Shown: piece after piece, positions 1,668 to 35,162 of the stretch
How positions within the stretch are numbered: position 1 is the first letter of the stretch
Layout: the number at the start of each line of letters is the position of its first letter
Program-made: the position numbers and the translations under genes
The notes under the pieces: model-generated
The model's database searches: none
Seen by the model: only the letters and a program-made list of their open reading frames with translations
What the model was told of the DNA's origin: nothing
NCBI GenBank assembly: GCA_001767455.1
Contig: MELC01000064.1
Location: forward strand, 49,153 to 84,314
Length of the DNA: 35,162 nt
DNA from: Acidobacteria bacterium RIFCSPLOWO2_12_FULL_66_21
GTDB lineage: Bacteria; Acidobacteriota; Vicinamibacteria; Vicinamibacterales; 2-12-FULL-66-21
Direction of reading: 5' to 3'

Positions 1668-1934
1668 CACGAAGACCACGAAGCTCACGAAGTTCACGAA
1701 GACTGTACGGGACAGCCCACAGCGGGCGCGAGTCCTGATACGGCTGGACCGTCGAGCGCCGGCCGCATGACTTGCGAGGCCGGCGGTGCAGGACAGCCGG
1801 AACCCGCAAACGCAAACAGCTCGGGATCGAGTGCTGCTTGCGTTTGCGGGTTCCGACTGTCCTTGCCGCGCTACGCGCGGCTCGACGGTTCAGCCGCTGC
1901 GCGAGGGGTCTTCGTGTCCTTCGTGTCCTTCGTG
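1668..1934. repeat. Cross-shaped intergenic repeat element, copy 1
   Basis: Four CACGAAG units with exact 9-bp period (1668, 1677, 1686, 1695) are mirrored by three inverted CTTCGTG units with 9-bp period (1910, 1919, 1928). Inside them, 1741-1756 pairs with 1881-1896 (15 of 16). Next come a 29-nt side hairpin (1757-1785, CGCCGGCC/GGCCGGCG) and a 15-nt side hairpin (1866-1880, CCGCGC/GCGCGG). An inner stem of 30 bp follows (1791-1820 with 1833-1862, 28 of 30 matched; on the minus strand both mismatches are G-U wobbles). The element occupies most of the 455-base gap between the PilZ and aldehyde dehydrogenase genes; I see no gene in that gap. A second copy of the same design lies at 30019-30291. 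Confidence 0.9.
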
Positions 1935-1997: not shown

Positions 1998-2375
1998 TCA
2001 CAACTCGTCCGCGATCTCGGCGTCCACGATCGCGGGCATGGTGCGCGCGTCTTTCTGGGCCTCGACGAATTCGCGGATGGCGGCGCGGGCATGGTCGGAC
2101 GGCTCGACGAACTCGACCCCGGTGCGGTACAGGACCGCCCCCTGCGCCAGCTCGCCAATCTGGCAGTGCACGATTCTCCCCTTGACGACGACGGAGCGGG
2201 TGCCGAGCGACAGGCGGAAGTCGTGGAGGGAATCGAGGTGCAGCGCGAAGGTCGTTTCGATCTGCGCGCCACGCTCGCTCATGTCGAGGATCGTCATCGG
2301 CTCGAACACCGTGACCTCCCCGGTGACTTGTCCCGGGATCGGGATCCGCTCGGTGTCGCGCTTTTCGTCGTTCAA
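1998..2375 (-). CDS. PilZ domain protein, probable c-di-GMP receptor
   Basis: A 125-residue single-domain protein. It carries both halves of the PilZ c-di-GMP binding signature: RxxxR at residues 6-10 (RDTER) and DxSxxG at 31-36 (DMSERG), followed by the expected beta-rich segments. PilZ proteins change conformation on binding cyclic di-GMP and pass the signal to motility, secretion or polysaccharide targets; the target here is unknown. The start is a TTG five bases after the stop of the upstream gamma-glutamylcyclotransferase-like gene, and there is no clear ribosome binding site, so translation may be coupled. Its presence in the same window as two HD-GYP proteins is suggestive but they are 18 kb apart. 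Confidence 0.85.
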   Translation of the reverse strand: MNDEKRDTERIPIPGQVTGEVTVFEPMTILDMSERGAQIETTFALHLDSLHDFRLSLGTRSVVVKGRIVHCQIGELAQGAVLYRTGVEFVEPSDHARAAIREFVEAQKDARTMPAIVDAEIADEL

Positions 2376-10485: not shown

Positions 10486-10540
10486 AGGTTCCAGGGTTCC
10501 AGGGTTCTGGGGTTCTGGGTTAGAACCCTAGAACCCTAGA
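10484..10540. repeat. Octamer array between tsaD and the OmpA-family gene, with internal inversion
   Basis: Read on the plus strand, units of the type AGGGTTCC/AGGGTTCT run for about 30 bases and then invert to AGAACCCT units. GGGTTCT and AGAACCC can pair as a hairpin. The complement of the tsaD stop codon (10536-10538) lies inside the last units, and the ribosome binding site of the next gene lies inside the first. The array therefore replaces nearly all of the 63-base spacer. Confidence 0.85.
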
Positions 10541-14381: not shown

Positions 14382-14390
14382 CTCGCTCGA

Positions 14391-14439
14391 AGCTGACAGC
14401 TGACAGCTGACAGCTGACAGCTGTCAGCTGATAGCTGAT
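14391..14439. repeat. Seven-unit AGCTGAC-type heptamer array
   Basis: Seven consecutive 7-bp units: AGCTGAC x4, AGCTGTC, AGCTGAT x2, followed by AGCTTTTTA, which runs into the complement of the transporter's TAA stop (14446-14448). It is separated from the CTCGTTA-type array by only nine bases. The AGCT core is itself a palindrome, so slipped hairpins are possible on either strand. Confidence 0.95.
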
Positions 14440-14445
14440 AGCTTT

Positions 14446-27273: not shown

Positions 27274-28914
27274 ATGTGGACAGTCTCCCGGCGCAGTCGC
27301 CGTCTGCGCGTCCTGCTACCGCTCGTCGCCTCGGTCCTCCTGATGCGGCCGTCGCTGCCGGCGCAATCGCGCCCCGGGCGTGTGGCCATCGCGCCCCAGT
27401 CCACGGCCGAACTGCGCGACTGGGATCAGCGGACCGTCCGGATGACGCGTGACGGCGATCTGCGGCTGCGGCAGACGCGGGAGGACGCGCTCATCCCCGG
27501 GCGCACGCACGAGCGGCTCGACCAGTACTACCGCGGGGTGCGCGTGTTCGGCGCGGACCTGACGCGCCAGCTCGGGAACGGCCAGGCGCCGTCCTCCTTC
27601 GGCTTCATCTACGACGGGATCGCGGTCGATCCGACGCCGGAGCTCGACGCGGACGCGGCCCGGGCCATCGCGGAGAAACAGTCCGGCGTCCTGCTCGGCC
27701 CGCTCGCCGAACCCGAGCTCGTGGTGCTCCCGCTCGACGCGGGCGGGTTCGCGCTGACGTGGCGGGTCCGCGCCGTGACGGGCATCGACATCCGGCAGTA
27801 TTTCATCGACGCGCGCACCGGCTCGGTCGTGCTCGAGTACAGCGACCTGCAGACGCAGACCGCCGTCGGCCGCGCGACGGGCGTGCTCGGCGACCCGAAG
27901 AAGATCGCCGCGTCCTCGGAGAGCGGACGGTTCACCGCCGTCGATCACCTGCGCCCGCCGCTCATCTCGACCTACGACATGCAGGGGAACCCCAGCCGCA
28001 CGAACAGCTATCTGAACGGGTTCGTCCAGCTCGCCCCGAGCGATCTCGCCTCGGACAGCGACAACGCCTGGACGGACGGGGCGATCTCCGACGCGCACGT
28101 CTACGCCGGCTACACCTACGACTATTACTTCACGCGATTCGGCCGGAAGGGGCTGGACAACGGCAACATCCGCATGGTGATGCTCGTCCATCCGGTGCGG
28201 CGCAGCGATTTCACGATTCCGTACTACACCCAGAATTCGATCTACTTCACCAACGCGTTCTATGCCGGCAACGGCGTGATGGCGTTCGGCGAGGGCCTTC
28301 CCCCCAACGTCACGCTTGGCGGGCAGGTCTGGGACTTTCTCGCCGGCGCCATCGACGTGGTGGCGCACGAGCTGACGCACGGCGTGACGGACTACTCGTC
28401 GCGCCTGATCTACCGGAACGAGTCGGGCGCGCTCAACGAGGCGTTCTCCGACATCATGGGCGCGAACGTCGAGTTCTTCTTCCAGCCGTCCGGGTCCGGG
28501 TCGATGAAGGGCGAATACTTGATGGGTGAGGATGTGGTGCGTCCCGACGGCATCCGGTCGCTCGCCGACCCGCTGTCGCAAGGGGATCCCGATCATTACA
28601 GCCGGCGCTTCCTGGGCACCAGCGACGGGGGCGGCGTGCACACGAACTCCCTCATCGCGAGCCACGCGTACTACCTGGCGATCGAGGGCGGCACGAACCG
28701 CACGTCGGGCCTCTCGGTGCAGGGCGTGGGGGCGGCAAACCGCGAGCAGATGGAGAAGGTGTTCTACCGCGCCTTCACGCAGTTCCTCACGGCGAGCGCG
28801 ACGTTCTCGTCGGCGCGCGCGGCCACGATCCAGGCGGCACGCGACCTGTACGGCGCGGGCGGCGCGGTCGAGCGCGCCGTGACCGACGCCTGGACCGCCG
28901 TCGGCGTCTTTTGA
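27274..28914 (+). CDS. Secreted thermolysin-like (M4) metalloprotease
   Basis: A 546-residue protein with a signal peptide (MWTVSRRSRRLRVLLPLVAS onward), a propeptide of roughly 200 residues with the FTP/PepSY-like pattern, and an M4 catalytic domain. The zinc site is HELTH (H365, H369) with the third ligand E389 in NESGALNEAFSD, 20 residues after the second His as in thermolysin. The substrate-stabilising His lies in DGGGVHTNSLIASHAYYL. The enzyme should be secreted and active as a neutral endopeptidase. It lies 25 bases after the phosphatase gene, or one base if the ATG at 27250 is used. Confidence 0.93.
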   Translation: MWTVSRRSRRLRVLLPLVASVLLMRPSLPAQSRPGRVAIAPQSTAELRDWDQRTVRMTRDGDLRLRQTREDALIPGRTHERLDQYYRGVRVFGADLTRQLGNGQAPSSFGFIYDGIAVDPTPELDADAARAIAEKQSGVLLGPLAEPELVVLPLDAGGFALTWRVRAVTGIDIRQYFIDARTGSVVLEYSDLQTQTAVGRATGVLGDPKKIAASSESGRFTAVDHLRPPLISTYDMQGNPSRTNSYLNGFVQLAPSDLASDSDNAWTDGAISDAHVYAGYTYDYYFTRFGRKGLDNGNIRMVMLVHPVRRSDFTIPYYTQNSIYFTNAFYAGNGVMAFGEGLPPNVTLGGQVWDFLAGAIDVVAHELTHGVTDYSSRLIYRNESGALNEAFSDIMGANVEFFFQPSGSGSMKGEYLMGEDVVRPDGIRSLADPLSQGDPDHYSRRFLGTSDGGGVHTNSLIASHAYYLAIEGGTNRTSGLSVQGVGAANREQMEKVFYRAFTQFLTASATFSSARAATIQAARDLYGAGGAVERAVTDAWTAVGVF

Positions 28915-28925
28915 ACGGAGTCGTG

Positions 28926-29687
28926 ATGCGCACCGTGACCGCCTGCGTTCTGTTCGTGCTGTCGCTCGCCGTGCCCTGCGCGGCGCAATCCGCAGCCCCT
29001 TCGACACGCTCAGGGCAGGCGCACCGCGGCTACGTGACCGTCAACGCGGGCTCGCAGCCGACCTCGCGCAGCTTCTCCGATCACTTCACGTTCGAACAGA
29101 ACGTGGAAACGGCCACGGTGGACCTGCGCTACCCGGTGAAAGCCGCCATCCTGTTCGACGGCGGCGGCGGCATCCGGCTGTGGCGGCAATTCGGCGTCGG
29201 TCTGTCCGTTTCACGCACGGCGCACGACAACGCCGCCTCGATCGAGGCGAAGAGCCCGCATCCCTTCTTCTTCAACCAGCCGCGCGCCGTGACCGGGACC
29301 GCCGCTGCCCTCACGCGGACCGAAACGGCCGCGCACCTGCAGATCCTCTACATGCGCCCCCAGACCGGCCACCTCCGATTGACACTCGGGGCCGGGCCCT
29401 CGCTGATCAACCTGGAACAGAAGCTCGTGACCGCGCTGCACATCACCGACGAGTACCCGTACGACACCGCGTCGCTCGGGTCGGCGGACACCGGGCGCAA
29501 GCGGAAGTCGGCGATCGGCTTCAACGCGGGCGCCGACGTGACGTGGATGTTCACGCGCCACATCGGCGCCGGCGTCCTCGTGCGTTTCACACAGGCGCAC
29601 GTGAAGCTCACGACGTCGGACAGCCGGACGATCGGCATTGACGCCGGCGGCGCGCAGGCAGGCGCCGGGTTGCGATTCTTCTTCTGA
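28926..29687 (+). CDS. Outer-membrane beta-barrel protein
   Basis: A 253-residue protein with a signal peptide (MRTVTACVLFVLSLAVPCAAQ). It has alternating hydrophobic/polar strands and a C-terminal run ending in GLRFFF, the aromatic end typical of barrels inserted by the BAM machinery. I cannot name its function. The ATG at 28926 has GGAG five bases upstream (28917-28920); a TTG at 28911 overlapping the previous stop is less likely. Just after the signal peptide the sequence PSTRSGQA is encoded by a short repeat-like insertion. Confidence 0.8.
   Translation: MRTVTACVLFVLSLAVPCAAQSAAPSTRSGQAHRGYVTVNAGSQPTSRSFSDHFTFEQNVETATVDLRYPVKAAILFDGGGGIRLWRQFGVGLSVSRTAHDNAASIEAKSPHPFFFNQPRAVTGTAAALTRTETAAHLQILYMRPQTGHLRLTLGAGPSLINLEQKLVTALHITDEYPYDTASLGSADTGRKRKSAIGFNAGADVTWMFTRHIGAGVLVRFTQAHVKLTTSDSRTIGIDAGGAQAGAGLRFFF
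28997..29014. repeat. Short REP-like sequence inside the barrel gene
   Basis: CCCTTCGACACGCTCAGG with the following GGC resembles a short oligonucleotide (cctTCGAC-A-GCTCagg type) that I remember recurring in many bacterial genomes, often between or inside genes. Here it is in frame at the junction of signal peptide and mature protein, where an insertion would be tolerated. Confidence 0.45.
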
Positions 29688-29690
29688 ACG

Positions 29691-30017
29691 ATGCGTCCCG
29701 CCGGACCCGAGTTCGCCTTCCGCGTCCTGACGGCCGTGTGCCGGATTCCCCCCGGCAAAGTGGCCACGTACGGCGACGTCGCGGCGGCGGCGGGCCGCCC
29801 GCGTGCGTGGCGCGCCGTCGGCAACATCATGCGCGACTGCCGGACGCCCGGCATTCCCTGCCACCGCGTTGTCGCCGCGTCGGGACAGCTCGGCGGGTAT
29901 GGTGGTAATGTCGGAATGAAGCGGGCGCTGCTCCACGCCGAAGGGGTGCTCATCTCGGGCACCCGCATCCGCGATTTCACGGCGCGCCGCTGGCGGAGGC
30001 CGCGGAGGAGACGGTGA
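29691..30017 (+). CDS. MGMT-type DNA alkyltransferase, DNA-binding domain only
   Basis: A 108-residue protein equal to the C-terminal domain of O6-alkylguanine-DNA alkyltransferases. It shows the winged-helix part (PPGKVATYGDVAAAAG, RAVGNIMRDC), the acceptor-site IPCHRVV and the GGYGG loop. The acceptor Cys is kept, so alkyl transfer is possible; alkyltransferase-like (ATL) proteins of this size normally have Trp there. It lacks the usual N-terminal domain. The last ten residues are almost all Arg (RRWRRPRRRR) and are coded where the downstream repeat element begins. It starts three bases after the barrel gene. Confidence 0.88.
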   Translation: MRPAGPEFAFRVLTAVCRIPPGKVATYGDVAAAAGRPRAWRAVGNIMRDCRTPGIPCHRVVAASGQLGGYGGNVGMKRALLHAEGVLISGTRIRDFTARRWRRPRRRR

Positions 30018-30018
30018 T

Positions 30019-30291
30019 CACGGAGACGATCACACGGAGGCACGGAGATCACGGAGACGCACGGAGACGCATGGCCGGTCTGGCCGCGCTTCGCGCGGTG
30101 AGGTGGCCTGAGATCCGCAAACGCAAACACGCGTCGAGTGCAGGCGTGCTTGCGTTTGTGGATCTCAGACCACCTCCAGACGCCGGCCGGAGGCACCCGA
30201 CGGCCGGCGCCAGACCGGCCACTGTGACCGCCGTCCGTCGGTGCTCTGCTTTTCGTGATCCGCGCGTCGCCGTGCCCTCCGTGGCTCCGTG
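30019..30291. repeat. Cross-shaped intergenic repeat element, copy 2
   Basis: Left arm: CACGGAG units at 30019, 30033, 30041, 30050 and 30060. Right arm: inverted CTCCGTG at 30277 and 30285 plus weaker ones. Inside, 30073-30083 pairs perfectly with 30210-30220. Then come a 15-nt side hairpin (30084-30098, CCGCGC/GCGCGG) and a 29-nt side hairpin (30181-30209, CGCCGGCC/GGCCGGCG). The inner stem is 33 bp (30100-30132 with 30144-30176, 30 of 33). The core words CCGCAAACGCAAACA and TGCTTGCGTTTG are shared with copy 1; most other stem sequence is not. The element fills most of the 389-base gap between the alkyltransferase and sigma-factor genes. In the remaining 30292-30406 I see no feature. Confidence 0.9.
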
Positions 30292-30406
30292 TAAAGGACC
30301 TTCGCCGCCGCTCCGAAGGACGACTGGAGCGCAGCCCTTCAAGGCTGCCGGCGCGCGAAAAAAGTAAACCAAATCCCCCCGTCCTCCGTTAACTCTGTCG
30401 TGAACG

Positions 30407-31051
30407 ATGGCCGCATCCTGGAATGCCGCAGGGCAACGCGAGCGCCGCATGATCCCGTCTAAGGTGACAGCGCACCCGGCCGCCGCGACGGGCGGGCCCG
30501 CCGGCCGCGCCGCCGACATGGCGCTCGTCGAGCGGTGCCGGAACGGGGACCTCGCCGCGTTCGAGGAACTGTACCGGGCGCACGCGGGCAAGCTGTTCAG
30601 CGTCGCCTGCCGGATGCTGGGCAACCCGAGCGACGCGGAAGACCTGCTCCAGGAAGTGTTCCTGTCGGCGCACCGCAAGCTGGAGACCTTCCGCGGCGAG
30701 TCCGCGCTCGGCACGTGGCTGTATCGCCTCGCGATGAACCAGTGCCTGGACTTCCTGCGCAGCCGCACGGCGCGGACTAACCAGGTCACCGGCACGCTCG
30801 ACGACGAGCCCGGGCTGTCGGACACGGCGTCGCGCGGGCTGGCGGAGCGGACGGTGGCGCGGATGGATCTGGAGCGCGCGCTGGTGCAACTGCCCGAGGG
30901 CTGCCGTGCGGCGTTCGTGCTGCACGACGTCGAAGGGTTCGAGCACCGGGAGGTCGCCGAGGCGCTGGGGATCGCCGAGGGCACGTCGAAGTCGCAGGTG
31001 CACAAGGCGCGGCTGCGGCTACGCGCCATACTGTCGGCGGCGAAATCGTGA
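30407..31051 (+). CDS. ECF-type RNA polymerase sigma factor
   Basis: A 214-residue sigma-70 family factor of the ECF group. Region 2 (about 38-105) includes LFSVACRMLGNPSDAEDLLQ and FRGESALGTWLYRLAMN; region 4 (about 150-205) includes LPEGCRAAFVLHDVEGFEHREVA and the recognition helix SKSQVHKARLRLR. It redirects RNA polymerase to a small regulon in response to an envelope or stress signal. The N-terminus before residue 38 is not conserved, so the start may be 30407 or the ATG at 30449; neither has a clear ribosome binding site. The anti-sigma factor follows after a 141-base repeat-filled gap. Confidence 0.93.
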   Translation: MAASWNAAGQRERRMIPSKVTAHPAAATGGPAGRAADMALVERCRNGDLAAFEELYRAHAGKLFSVACRMLGNPSDAEDLLQEVFLSAHRKLETFRGESALGTWLYRLAMNQCLDFLRSRTARTNQVTGTLDDEPGLSDTASRGLAERTVARMDLERALVQLPEGCRAAFVLHDVEGFEHREVAEALGIAEGTSKSQVHKARLRLRAILSAAKS

Positions 31052-31181
31052 ATTGGCGAATTGGTGAATTCGTGAATTCGTGAATTGTGATTTGAGCGGC
31101 AACGAGCCGCAGCGTCCAGCCGGACGGTCAGGCGCAGTGCCGCCAATTCACCAATTCACCAATTCACCGATTCACCGATTT
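31050..31181. repeat. Inverted pair of five-unit octamer arrays with central hairpins
   Basis: Left arm: GAATT at 31050, 31058, 31066, 31074 and 31082, an exact 8-bp period (unit GAATTSGT). Right arm: AATTC or GATTC at 31145, 31153, 31161, 31169 and 31177, the inverse at the same period. The 58-base centre holds GCGGC-AACGA-GCCGC (31096-31110) and GTCC-AGCC-GGAC (31114-31125). The sigma-factor stop codon (31049-31051) lies in the left arm. The element fills the gap between the sigma and anti-sigma genes and would be transcribed with them. Confidence 0.93.
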
Positions 31182-31192
31182 CAGAGATTCAG

Positions 31193-31954
31193 ATGATGGT
31201 GGAGTGCACGAGATACAGAACGTCGATTCAGGAGCTGGTGGACGGCACGCTGGGACCGATCCGCCGCGCCGAGCTCGATCTGCACCTCGATCAGTGCGAC
31301 GGCTGCCGCGCGCTCGCGTCGGACCTGCAGGCGATCCACGACGCCGCGGCGTCGCTCGAGCCGCTCGAGCCGCCGGGCGCCGTGTGGATGCAGATCGCCG
31401 GACGGCTGCGCCAGGAAGGACGCGTCTCGGCGCCGTCGATCGTGCGCGCCACGCCGCGGCACCGCGCCGTGCTCCTCGCGCTGGCGGCGGCGCTCGTCCT
31501 GGCGATCGGCGCATCGATCCTGCTCCTGCTGCCCGAGTTCCGCGCGACACGCGAGCAGGCGGGGCAGGCGACGACCGGCGAGGGCAACGCCACGGACGAC
31601 GTCACCGTCCAAAGCGTGGAAGCGGAATTCCGGCTGGCCGAGCAGCATTACCAGAACGCGATCAACAAGCTCGAACAGGCCGCGAAGCTGGATCAGGCGG
31701 CGGCCGGCGGCGGCATCGACCCGCAGACCGCGGCGGTGCTGCAGAAGAACCTGCAGGTGATTGACCAGGCGATTGCCGAGAGCCGCGCGGCGCTGCGATC
31801 GGAGCCGCAGAGCGCCCCCGCCCGCGACAGCCTGTTCGACGCGCTGAAACGGAAGGTCACGCTGCTGCAGGACACGATCGCGTTGATGAACGAGATGCGC
31901 AAGGGCAACCCGGCCGGCGGCGCGCAGCTCGTCGAGGGATTGAACAAGTCGTAG
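31193..31954 (+). CDS. Membrane-spanning zinc-finger anti-sigma factor
   Basis: A 253-residue protein. The N-terminus carries the anti-sigma zinc motif: C5, then H31xxxC35xxC38 (HLDQCDGC). A single membrane helix lies at about 92-113, followed by a periplasmic part with long helical, Gln/Ala-rich stretches likely to form a coiled coil. Such proteins hold the cognate ECF sigma factor at the membrane until a signal releases it. The gene order sigma then anti-sigma supports that pairing. The start MM at 31193 has no clear ribosome binding site and directly follows the octamer array. Confidence 0.9.
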   Translation: MMVECTRYRTSIQELVDGTLGPIRRAELDLHLDQCDGCRALASDLQAIHDAAASLEPLEPPGAVWMQIAGRLRQEGRVSAPSIVRATPRHRAVLLALAAALVLAIGASILLLLPEFRATREQAGQATTGEGNATDDVTVQSVEAEFRLAEQHYQNAINKLEQAAKLDQAAAGGGIDPQTAAVLQKNLQVIDQAIAESRAALRSEPQSAPARDSLFDALKRKVTLLQDTIALMNEMRKGNPAGGAQLVEGLNKS

Positions 31955-31988
31955 CGCGGCCCCTTGGGGCGCGTCGAAAGAAGACACC

Positions 31989-33047
31989 ATGTCGAAGAGA
32001 GCCACCACCCTGCTGACGATGGCCGCGGTCGCCGCGCTTGCGGCACCCTCATCGGCGCAGTCCATCTCCGAGCAGATCCGCGCCGTCAAACGCGCGGTGG
32101 AACACGCGGCCACGGTCCGGTACCAGCCGGGCGGCGAGACACAGACGGACCGCTCGACCCGCACCGTGAAGATCAGCGCGAACGGCGACATCGACATCTC
32201 GAATATCGCGGGGGACATCACCATCACGCGCGGCGGCGGCAGCAACGCGACGATCGAGATCGTGAAGACCGCCCGCGCCCGCACCGCCGCCGAAGCGAAA
32301 GAGATGCTCGGCCAGGTGCAGGTGGTCGTCGAGGAGCGCCCGGGCCGCGTGGAGATCCAGACGCGCTATCCGCAGCAGCGCAACGCCTGGATGGGATGGG
32401 GAAACCGCCGCGGCACCAACGTCTCGGTGGCCTTCACGATCACGGCGCCGGCGGGCGTCCGGATCGCGGCAAAGTCGGTGGCCGGCAGCGTCAAGGTGTC
32501 CGGGATCAAGGGAGAGCTCACGCTCGAGGCCGTGAGCGGCAGCGTTCGTGTCTCCGACGCCGGACGCATCTCGAGCGCCAAGTCGCTGGCCGGCGGCGTC
32601 GAGATTCTGGACAGCCGGCTCGACGGTGTGCTCGAGGTCTCGAGCGTCGCCGGCCCGGTCGTCCTGCGCCACGTGCGCGTGCGTCGTATCGAGGCAGGGT
32701 CCGTCAGCGGCGGCCTCACGCTCGAAGACGTCGAGTGCGATCGCGCCGAGCTGACTTCCTTCAGCGGCACCGTCGAGTTCACGGGCCCGCTGGCACGCGG
32801 CGGCCGCTACGAAATGAAATCGCACACCGGCGACGTACGGATCACGGTCACGGGGGGCGCCGGTTTCGAGTTCGACGCCACGACCTTCAGCGGGTCGCTC
32901 CGCAGCGACCTTCCCCTGACCAACCGGGCCGCCGAGCGGCCGGAACGCCGGATGACCCGCCGCAGCCTGCAGGGCACGTCCGGAGACGGCGGCGCCGTCC
33001 TCGAACTGAGCACCTTCTCCGGCAACGTCGTCATCTCGAAAAGGTAG
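31989..33047 (+). CDS. Exported DUF4097 (putative adhesin-like beta-repeat) protein
   Basis: A 352-residue protein with a signal peptide (about 1-24, ending SSAQS). The body is a series of short beta repeats of the form 'I...SVAGSVKVSGIKGELTLEAVSGSVRVS', the pattern of the DUF4097 family, which probably folds as a beta-solenoid. The biochemical role of the family is not known; it is often found beside ECF sigma/anti-sigma genes, as here, and may sense or respond to envelope stress. An AAGAAG site precedes the ATG. The stop codon forms part of a hairpin at 33040-33080. Confidence 0.85.
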   Translation: MSKRATTLLTMAAVAALAAPSSAQSISEQIRAVKRAVEHAATVRYQPGGETQTDRSTRTVKISANGDIDISNIAGDITITRGGGSNATIEIVKTARARTAAEAKEMLGQVQVVVEERPGRVEIQTRYPQQRNAWMGWGNRRGTNVSVAFTITAPAGVRIAAKSVAGSVKVSGIKGELTLEAVSGSVRVSDAGRISSAKSLAGGVEILDSRLDGVLEVSSVAGPVVLRHVRVRRIEAGSVSGGLTLEDVECDRAELTSFSGTVEFTGPLARGGRYEMKSHTGDVRITVTGGAGFEFDATTFSGSLRSDLPLTNRAAERPERRMTRRSLQGTSGDGGAVLELSTFSGNVVISKR

Positions 33048-33080
33048 AACGTAGAAGACCCACGTCTACGTTCTACCTTT
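33040..33080. repeat. Hairpin of inverted GTAGAAC heptamers at a gene end
   Basis: AAAGGTAGAACGTAGA and GAC (33040-33059) pair with GTCTACGTTCTACCTTT (33064-33080), about 17 bp with one bulged A. The left arm contains the TAG stop of the DUF4097 gene. Each arm has two phased copies of GTAGA(AC). The run of T after it is short, so it may protect the mRNA 3' end rather than terminate. Confidence 0.8.
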
Positions 33081-33779: not shown

Positions 33780-33836
33780 CAGCAGGCGGCATGCAGCAGG
33801 CAGCCGGCAGTGGATCACACTGCCAGCTGCCAGCTG
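33780..33836. repeat. Inverted CAGCAGG heptamers between convergent genes
   Basis: CAGCAGG, CGGCATG, CAGCAGG and CAGCCGG follow each other with a 7-bp period from 33780. 33799-33811 then pairs with 33819-33831 (12 of 13) around a seven-base loop. The element begins right after the TGA of the small exported protein and ends at the complement of the RNase stop, filling the whole gap between two convergent genes. Confidence 0.85.
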
Positions 33837-35162
33837 TCATACGGCCATCAAGTCGAACTGCTCGTGGTGCAGGTGGGTGTCGGGCTTGATCGTCACCGGC
33901 CTGCCGAGCGTCTGCTGAAGATCGCGAAAGAGCGCGCTCTCCTCTTCCTTCAGCGCCCGGGCGATATCCGGATTCACCCGGAGGATCACCCCCGCGCCTT
34001 CGAGCTCGCTGGCGATTTTTTTCATCTCCGTCAGGATTTCAGCACAGATCGTCGACGCGGATTTGATCGAGCCGGAGCCTGAGCAGTACGGGCACGGCTC
34101 GGTCAGTTGACGCTCCAGGCTCTGCTTCACCCGTTTGCGGGTGACAATCACCAGGCCGAAGTCCGACACCTGGAGTGCCTTTGACGGCGACCGGTCCTTT
34201 CGCAGCTCCTTCTCGACCTCCTGGAAGACTTTCTGGCGGTTCTTCTTCTCCTCCATATCGATCAGGTCGAGAACGATGATGCCGCCGAGGTCCCGCAACC
34301 GAATCTGCCGGACGATTTCCTTGACTGCCTCCAGGTTGGTCTTGACGATCGTGTCCTCGAGCCGGCCGGTCCGCTTGCCGACGTAGCGTCCGGTGTTGAC
34401 GTCGATCGCGACGAGCGCCTCCGTCTGGTTGATGACGAGGTAGCCGCCGGACTTCAGCCAGACCTTCGGCCGCAGCGCCTTGTCGATTTCCCCCTGCACG
34501 CCGTACTCGTCGAAGATCGGGAACTCCTTCGAGTACAGCTTCACGCGCGGCAGCAGGTTGGGCATGATCCGCTCGACCAGGGCGACCACGCGCCGGTGTT
34601 CGCGCTCGTGGTCGATCCGGATCGCCGTGTAGTCCTCCGTCAGCAGGTCGCGCAGGAGCTTCGTGACGAGGCTCTGTTCCTGGAACAGCACGGCGGGGGC
34701 GCGGCGCGTCTCCATCCGCTGGTGGATCTCCGTCCAGATCTGGTGGAAGTACGCCAGGTCGCTGACGATGTCGTCCTTGGATCGGGCGGAGGCGGCGGTC
34801 CGGATGATGACACCCCCGGTGAAGCCGTGCTCCTCGCGGAATTCGCGGACGATGCCCCGCAGGCGGGCGCGCTCCTCGCGCGACTCGATTTTCCTGGAGA
34901 CGCCGACGTGGTCGACCGTCGGCATGAACACGAGGAAGCGTCCGGGCATCGTCACGTGCGAGGTGAGGCGCGCCCCCTTCGTGCCGAGCGGTTCCTTGAC
35001 GACCTGGACGAGGATCTCCTGCCCTTCCTTCAGCAGGTCTTCGATTTTCGGCGGGGCCCCCTGCACCCCGCCTAGCTCCCTCCGCTGCGCTCGCGCTTCG
35101 CCGCTCGCTCCGCTCCGGTCTTCACTGTTCGGCGGGGCCCCCTGCACCCCGCCTGGCTCCCT
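33837..35162 (-). CDS. rng: Ribonuclease E/G family endoribonuclease (5' end outside window)
   Basis: The visible 441 residues run from inside the S1 RNA-binding domain to the C-terminus. The catalytic Asp residues lie in VAIDVNTG and IIVLDLIDM, and the Zn-link cysteines in PCPYCSGSG. The protein ends soon after, so it is RNase G-like, without a long degradosome-scaffolding tail. It cuts single-stranded, AU-rich RNA and matures rRNA. The S1 part shows KEGQEILVQVVKEPLGTKGARLT. Just before it, where a surface loop is expected, sits an in-frame repeat (GGVQGAPP twice, 27 codons apart) that reaches the window edge. Confidence 0.94.
   Translation of the reverse strand, partial: REPGGVQGAPPNSEDRSGASGEARAQRRELGGVQGAPPKIEDLLKEGQEILVQVVKEPLGTKGARLTSHVTMPGRFLVFMPTVDHVGVSRKIESREERARLRGIVREFREEHGFTGGVIIRTAASARSKDDIVSDLAYFHQIWTEIHQRMETRRAPAVLFQEQSLVTKLLRDLLTEDYTAIRIDHEREHRRVVALVERIMPNLLPRVKLYSKEFPIFDEYGVQGEIDKALRPKVWLKSGGYLVINQTEALVAIDVNTGRYVGKRTGRLEDTIVKTNLEAVKEIVRQIRLRDLGGIIVLDLIDMEEKKNRQKVFQEVEKELRKDRSPSKALQVSDFGLVIVTRKRVKQSLERQLTEPCPYCSGSGSIKSASTICAEILTEMKKIASELEGAGVILRVNPDIARALKEEESALFRDLQQTLGRPVTIKPDTHLHHEQFDLMAV
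35047..35162. repeat. In-frame 81-bp-period repeat inside the RNase E/G gene
   Basis: 35047-35081 and 35128-35162 are identical but for one base. The 81-bp period equals 27 codons, so the frame is kept. Each copy contains GGCGGGG and CCCCGCC, able to pair as a seven-bp stem. The array may continue beyond the window. Confidence 0.9.

Follow-up and report, generated by a model that had tools for sequence, protein, structure and literature searches.

A dispersed cross-shaped repeat in Acidobacteriota intergenic DNA and its putative link to GxxExxY genes

Two intergenic regions of the window, the 35,162-nucleotide stretch of DNA analyzed here (C64:49153-84314 of the 6.48 Mb genome G000), contain a large and elaborately self-complementary element. 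What maintains such a fold between bacterial genes? The original prediction described a nested cross in both copies, ascribed their compensated differences to selection on a fold or to a mechanism that rewrites both arms together, and hinted at an RNA within the mRNA of the adjoining aldehyde dehydrogenase gene. The architecture was correctly perceived. Both copies fold into one four-way junction situated between inverted arms of tandem units, and both junctions are composed of an outer stem, a side hairpin denoted L (arms GCCGGCC/GGCCGGC), a long inner stem, and a second side hairpin denoted S (arms CGCGC/GCGCG). The folds are far more stable than expected from shuffling, with z-scores of -13.6 for copy 1 and -10.8 for copy 2, and none of 200 shuffles was equally good in either case.

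Copy 1 lies on the plus strand, read from L to S, between an aldehyde dehydrogenase gene (PF00171; 34-1542, minus strand) and a PilZ-domain gene (1998-2375, minus strand). The limits first assigned to it, 1668-1934, are too narrow: the outer inverted match extends to 1637-1703/1908-1970, giving a full extent of 1637-1970 that takes in TIR-like ends (GCTGCACGCGCCGACGGCTTT and AAAAGCCGTGGCCCGTCTCAGCGTG), arms, and core. The left arm (1668-1703) is built from four CACGAAG units that begin at 1668, 1677, 1686, and 1695 and thus repeat with a 9-nt period, and the right arm (1908-1943) carries the inverted CTTCGTG units (1910, 1919, and 1928). Inside the arms, the outer stem pairs 1741-1757 with 1880-1896 (94% paired) and encloses the L hairpin (1758-1784; GCCGGCC...GGCCGGC), the long inner stem (1790-1863, formed by 1790-1820 and 1833-1863, 94% paired), and the S hairpin (1866-1880; CCGCGCTACGCGCGG). 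Near its apex, the inner stem bears the motif AAACGCAAAC/GCTTGCGTTT and an A.C position, which becomes G.U on the minus strand. Both inner-stem mismatches of copy 1 are indeed G-U pairs on that strand, as the original prediction stated, but over 74 copies of the element neither strand is favored.

In copy 2, this element runs in the opposite orientation, the best match to R1, the covariance model used for genome searches, falling on the plus strand for copy 1 and on the minus strand for copy 2. Its arms and core span 30011-30293 on the minus strand. The predicted difference in arm units is seen directly, copy 1 being flanked by CACGAAG and copy 2 by CACGGAG. Within the four-way core (30072-30221, minus strand), a fully paired outer stem (30072-30084/30209-30221; 100%) holds the S hairpin (about 30084-30098) on the 5′ side of the inner stem (30100-30132/30144-30176, 91% paired) and the L hairpin (about 30182-30208) on its 3′ side. 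The side hairpins are equally long in the two copies (L measures 27 nt, or 29 nt with one more pair), but this equality is not a family trait, since L shortens to 17 nt at locus L004 and to 18 nt at L009. Copy 2 sits between an O6-methylguanine methyltransferase-type gene (PF01035; 29691-30017, plus strand), whose final codons (RRPRRRR) are read from the arm, as the element lies at its 3′ end, and a sigma-70 family (ECF-type) sigma factor gene (30407-31051, plus strand).

The window contains further palindromes of other kinds. Immediately to the right of copy 2, at 30329-30349, a small palindrome, GCGCAGCCCTTCAAGGCTGCC, resembles the GCAGCCC..GGGCTGC repeat that flanks the Y1 (RAYT-type) loci L016 and L017, a repeat that is probably the true REP family of G000. 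Positions 31059-31180 form a long palindrome whose arms consist of GTGAATTCG-like units. It is a separate tandem-arm palindrome family; of the 64 matches that window positions 28900-32100 have in the relative G002, most fall to stretches of it (about 31039-31184). Short-tandem-unit palindromes at 14390-14444, 33785-33846, 33040-33080, and 10498-10540 (GACAGCT, GGCAGCT, GTAGAAC, and AGGGTTCT) follow the same plan in other letters.

The two cross-shaped copies belong to a large family. Searched for exactly, the inner-stem motif turns up 14 times in G000 and the reversed control pattern not once, and all 14 copies share the same fold. A MAFFT alignment of these 14 (A1), made without structure and scored against a structure that derives from folds of the same sequences, is paired in 92.7% of 827 cells versus 82.3% after shuffling, and both sides have changed in 25 of its 60 pairs. 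The search with a covariance model that the original prediction called for, on the reckoning that only two copies genome-wide would tell against a selected fold, returned 43 intact copies and eight with the inner stem largely lost, that is, 51 copies in 6.48 Mb, a count that excludes further weak or contig-edge R1 matches. Six relatives drawn from three families of the order (G002, G004, G006, G011, G032, and G052) contributed 31 more. In the resulting alignment of 74 copies (A2), 93.9% of 4386 cells are paired versus 70.3% when shuffled, and both partners have changed in 53 of 60 pairs; restricting the count to the 31 foreign copies yields 93.2% versus 67.7% and again 53 of 60. A2 was fitted to the structure of the model and leans towards it, and A1 agrees with it. 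The expectation of a real, many-copy family with strong covariation was therefore borne out by the R1 search and by both alignments.

What is retained among the copies, and what is free to vary, follows a distinctive pattern. The letters of L and S and the apical motif AARC/GYTT are kept, while those of the outer and inner stems vary. At the apical position of the inner stem, read from L to S in 74 copies, the occupants are G.U (28), A.C (28), G-C (16), C.U (1), and A-U (1), such that a full A-U pair almost never occurs (1/74). In G104, G106, and G108, the layout is kept with other letters in six of seven excerpts, the seventh, L241, being a misplaced excerpt. Core and arm type go together: all 15 type-A cores have CACGAAG arms, and the 28 other cores have CACGGAG arms in 24 cases, CACGAAG arms in two, and a tie or none in two. 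Decay products are found as well: some cores lack the inner stem, an outer stem or arms may stand by themselves, and half elements form tandem arrays. Two such arrays, L150 and L153 (contigs C4 and C24 of G000), repeat a TIR-like end, a CACGAAG arm, and a spacer in units of ~115-120 nt. At L082 (G000, C64:17200-21400), a gene (259 aa aligned) lies between two truncated crosses ~1 kb apart, which differ in type and have CACGAAG and CACGGAG arms.

R1 matches occur in at least seven of 60 and at least nine of 193 genomes, G000 included in both, in tallies that scored the best 50 or best 15 of thousands of first-look candidates per genome; G036, which has a cross at L350, appears in neither. A GTDB-wide search with the exact pattern gave 72 stretches, among which only the Acidobacteria gp6 assembly AA36, L225, and L209 exceed 45 bits with R1, and most of the others look like chance. 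The original remark that no named family with this layout was known agrees with the Rfam search, in which the window gave nothing at or above a gathering score; across seven loci, Rfam matches were all below gathering, the weak ones being mostly miRNA-like hairpins. A literature search whose coverage left out most subscription journals found no paper on the family.

Where the copies sit, and what the same sites look like in relatives, bears directly on the opening question. Had the host selected a structured RNA or regulatory DNA, such as a terminator, attenuator, or processing site, and kept it locus by locus, the very stable fold, the strong covariation, and the intergenic position of all 43 intact copies (between called genes) would be expected. 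The gene contexts speak against this. With genes called by an in-house codon-usage script, as also for the strand and control counts below, 22 of the intact copies lie between tandem genes, 11 between convergent and nine between divergent genes, and one at a contig end, close to 2:1:1; in the tandem contexts, the element shares the strand of the genes in seven cases and opposes it in 15. The same gaps, moreover, are empty in relatives. Copy 2 is missing between the same two genes in nine of nine family relatives searched, where the gap between methyltransferase and sigma factor measures 2-207 nt between aligned parts, compared to 425-573 nt here. With limits taken from the G009 alignment, the DNA without counterpart in the nine relatives (copy 2 plus adjoining sequence) is 30002-30426, minus strand. 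A copy in G004 likewise has no counterpart in the corresponding gene gap of four other genomes (four gaps read): the two genes nearly touch in the congener G009 and also lie close to each other in G010, G002, and G000. In G008 this gap is ~312 nt shorter, judged by length only. Comparison of 51 own with 32 foreign element loci revealed no site at which both flanks match, the sole single-flank match being L055/L071 at 67% identity. The empty gaps are too short or too diverged to align, and no target-site duplication is definable. Nor are the copies fresh: among pairs taken with their flanks, the top-scoring one reaches 87.8% identity over 384 nt, and the closest cores are 94.7% identical.

The fate of stem pairs adds a temporal dimension. 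When own-genome copies at least 90% identical are compared, the stem pairs that differ comprise 20 that are broken in one copy, 18 kept through G-U, nine changed on both sides, and 10 others; among copies at 50-60% identity, double changes outnumber broken pairs by 7008 to 2088, the comparisons between copies not being independent in either set. Changes that break pairing as often as they keep it had been named as grounds for abandoning a selected fold, and this description fits the recent changes but fails for the old ones. Since recent changes break pairs about as often as they keep them and old ones mostly keep them, the fold was selected in the spreading lineage while single copies decay. 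Lacking a preferred gene side or strand, empty in the same gaps of relatives, and breaking pairs among its close copies, the element does not behave as the hinted RNA of the aldehyde dehydrogenase mRNA would; selection by the host at each locus is a very unlikely account that these observations already largely refute. Selection on the fold, one half of the original proposal, fits the older changes. The other half, a mechanism that rewrites both arms together, is unlikely given the G.U or A.C that 56 of 74 copies retain within the inner stem. A related rival is a mutational mechanism alone, with template switching between arms matching the palindromes regardless of any fold selection. The abundance of tandem-unit palindromes in the window and the existence of half-element tandem arrays count in its favor. 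Against it stand the same retained G.U or A.C position, the conservation of the letters of L and S across genera when those of the other stems are not conserved, and the broken pairs that stay unrepaired in near-identical copies. Template switching alone is thus the least probable of the accounts considered. As far as sequence comparison goes, the cross repeat is dispersed, was inserted at empty sites, and conserved its fold while spreading, and its reading as inserted mobile DNA, not a fixed host RNA, is well supported.

A candidate for the partner that once moved the repeat emerged in relatives. In the lead case, G108, a cross lies directly 3′ of a GxxExxY gene, and inverted CACAGAG-type arms surround both. 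Of 193 genomes of the class, 75 have matches to the corresponding Pfam family, PF13366. Among 54 GxxExxY loci, which were mostly best-scoring matches and not a random sample (30 + 4 + 20 with usable flanks, seven fragmentary or short loci left out), 46 have the gene lying between inverted tandem-unit arms, compared to one of 23 control genes, taken from 20 stretches of four genomes with an in-house gene caller. In L254 and L268, the best arm match consists largely of the two crosses, and 44 of 54 remain without them; the other eight loci are negative. The units themselves recur, with CACGAAG in L273, L350, and L367 and CACGGAG in L251, L253, and L366. The cross, too, is held in common: R1 detects it at E<1e-4 in 11 of 59 GxxExxY loci (L109, where the inner stem is lost, L116, L249, L254, L255, L258, L268, L272, L350, L355, and L358) versus none of 20 control stretches (best control E 0.08). 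Three of these (L109, L116, and L358) had been spotted by eye before the count, which is 8/56 without them; weak R1 matches at L248 (21 bits) and L267 (24 bits) were left out, and the remaining 48 of 59 loci have no cross at this threshold. A single cross, always at the 3′ end of the gene, is present in seven of the 11, and one cross on each side in the other four, the second one in L268 at E 7e-4. The arm elements of GxxExxY genes, defined here by inverted arms of tandem 7-10-nt units, and the copies in the window thus share their arms and an optional part, the cross, and differ in the gene, which is absent from the window copies. At L253 of G036, the upstream gene is common to eight congeners and the right neighbor differs, leaving no clean empty site; there, G128 has arms and a gene-less remnant, six congeners have nothing alike (two of them carry other palindromes), and L285 ends too early.

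The GxxExxY proteins carry the residue pattern of a PD-(D/E)XK nuclease. Residues D61, E71, and K73 of this pattern are kept in all eight aligned proteins, and the subsets scanned matched TIGR04256 (5/5, NCBIfam) and PF13366 (3/3, Pfam). Because a PDB profile search gave no relative, the predicted nuclease activity is read from the family name and these three residues. A ketol-acid reductoisomerase retrieved by a single-sequence PDB search (E 1e-4) is read as a chance match. Outside the Acidobacteriota, eight plasmid records were found and four GxxExxY genes were read. CACAGAG-type arms closely surround those of Bernardetia and Bacteroides (both Bacteroidota), with BLAST E values of 1e-5 and 7e-8. 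In Sphingomonas parapaucimobilis (L373, NZ_CP155749.1), the gene lies between fabD and fabG, which are usually adjacent, with short CGCGAAG-type arms that were recognized by eye and not by BLAST. The Gemmatirosa gene has no arms around it. Viral contigs and phages provided no confirmed GxxExxY relative with the queries used, the phage records having been searched with one query that gave no match. In the literature covered, which excludes most subscription journals, no functional paper on GxxExxY was found; a passage of PMC8934634 notes only such a domain beside a reverse transcriptase gene, and the word also occurs in PMC12085832.

These associations suggest a route by which the element could travel. 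The full relative would be a selfish unit consisting of inverted arms of tandem 7+2-nt units and a GxxExxY gene of the PD-(D/E)XK nuclease superfamily, at whose 3′ end some lineages also have the four-way-junction cross. In trans, the nuclease may recognize the folded arms or the junction and open donor or target DNA, upon which repair would copy the unit into a new intergenic site; gene-less derivatives could then spread in trans and subsequently decay. Enzymes that cleave four-way junctions are known among PD-(D/E)XK folds. We infer both the role of the GxxExxY nuclease as the mover and its target, be it the arms, junction DNA, or RNA. The copies in the window contain no gene, and a profile search revealed no PF13366 candidate in G000; hence, they could only be non-autonomous derivatives, and we read them as stranded relics of a GxxExxY element and of its past activity. 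Overall, movement through a structure-guided nuclease step followed by repair is the account that we consider somewhat probable.

Confidence in the nuclease account is held at that level because an S23-type element or a Y1 locus can also pass the arms test. The main rival, indeed, is another mover altogether, be it a single-strand transposase of the Y1/HUH type, an S23-type element, or a transposase that escaped notice, with the likeness to GxxExxY loci reflecting a tendency, common to small mobile genes, to lie within tandem-unit palindromes. Cross copies are present and a PF13366 match is absent in G000, G002, and G032, which counts against the nuclease as mover there, and G000 instead possesses three Y1 transposase matches (the transposase search covered PF01797 only) and four matches to S23 (PF05635), of which one does not reach the cut-off of the family; three of the four S23 loci and one of the three Y1 loci pass the arms test. 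However, BLAST, the only method applied there, recognizes a cross at none of the three Y1 loci (best E 0.004, 18 bases), for which reason Y1/RAYT was set aside as the partner; L016 and L017 are flanked by the different GCAGCCC..GGGCTGC repeat and L015 by none. The S23 arms differ in their units (CCAAACT, CAGCT-type, and CTCGTGG), and it is at GxxExxY genes that the cross itself occurs. Another mover thus seems rather unlikely. The S23 loci deserve mention in their own right: L244, L246, and L247 of G000 are four-helix-bundle matches with inverted arms of other units (L247 being the one below cut-off). Elements of a single kind may have branched into the S23 and the GxxExxY units.

Conceivably, the nuclease-guided route extends beyond this family. 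One may tentatively, and with considerable doubt, envisage a transposase-free selfish class that combines a compact PD-(D/E)XK nuclease gene, hairpin arms of tandem units, and a four-way core serving as substrate or nucleic-acid partner. The nuclease would either be junction-specific on a DNA core or work together with a core made of structured RNA; one arm would be marked for it by the kept G.U/A.C position, and many intergenic palindromes of the CACAGAG/CACGAAG type would be relics. If the nuclease account itself is right, a class of tandem-arm palindromes that lie unexplained between bacterial genes would gain an origin, the named protein family GxxExxY a candidate function, and mobile elements an example that works through the shape of a nucleic acid.

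How does the cross repeat compare with known systems? The nearest kinds are REP/RAYT, IVS/S23, and MITEs, and none agrees with it in all the defining features tested. Other non-autonomous intergenic repeats include ERIC, RU, and bcr. Literature on MITEs and such repeats includes PMC10969869 and PMC2759123. HEARO/IscB-type elements join a structured non-coding part to a nuclease ORF in one mobile unit; the structured part beside a nuclease ORF offers an analogy, qualified by the cross repeat being known here from its DNA alone. The GxxExxY family (TIGR04256/PF13366) comes with its gene between the same kind of arms and sometimes a 3′ cross, whereas G000 has no such gene. The cross repeat resembles MITEs in being short, gene-less, dispersed, and intergenic, with inverted ends and a foldable interior, and the MITE features of inverted ends, no coding capacity, and many copies are all present in it; it differs in its tandem 7+2-nt arms, its conserved four-way interior, and a likely partner gene of the PD-(D/E)XK superfamily. 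REPs, according to PMC3733652, are 20-40 nt long, bear a GTAG or CGTC tag, and may be found flanking RAYT genes. REP/BIME and RAYT systems scatter many extragenic palindromes through a genome, as is the case here, but the cross element is about 280-330 bp in size, and the Y1 genes of G000 have another repeat or none. Finally, the intervening sequences of 23S rRNA, portrayed in PMC4990558 as a selfish insertion in rRNA with one small ORF (S23) and no transposase, share the economy of such a unit, whereas the cross repeat lies between protein genes, is free of the S23 ORF, is linked to GxxExxY, and carries the cross.
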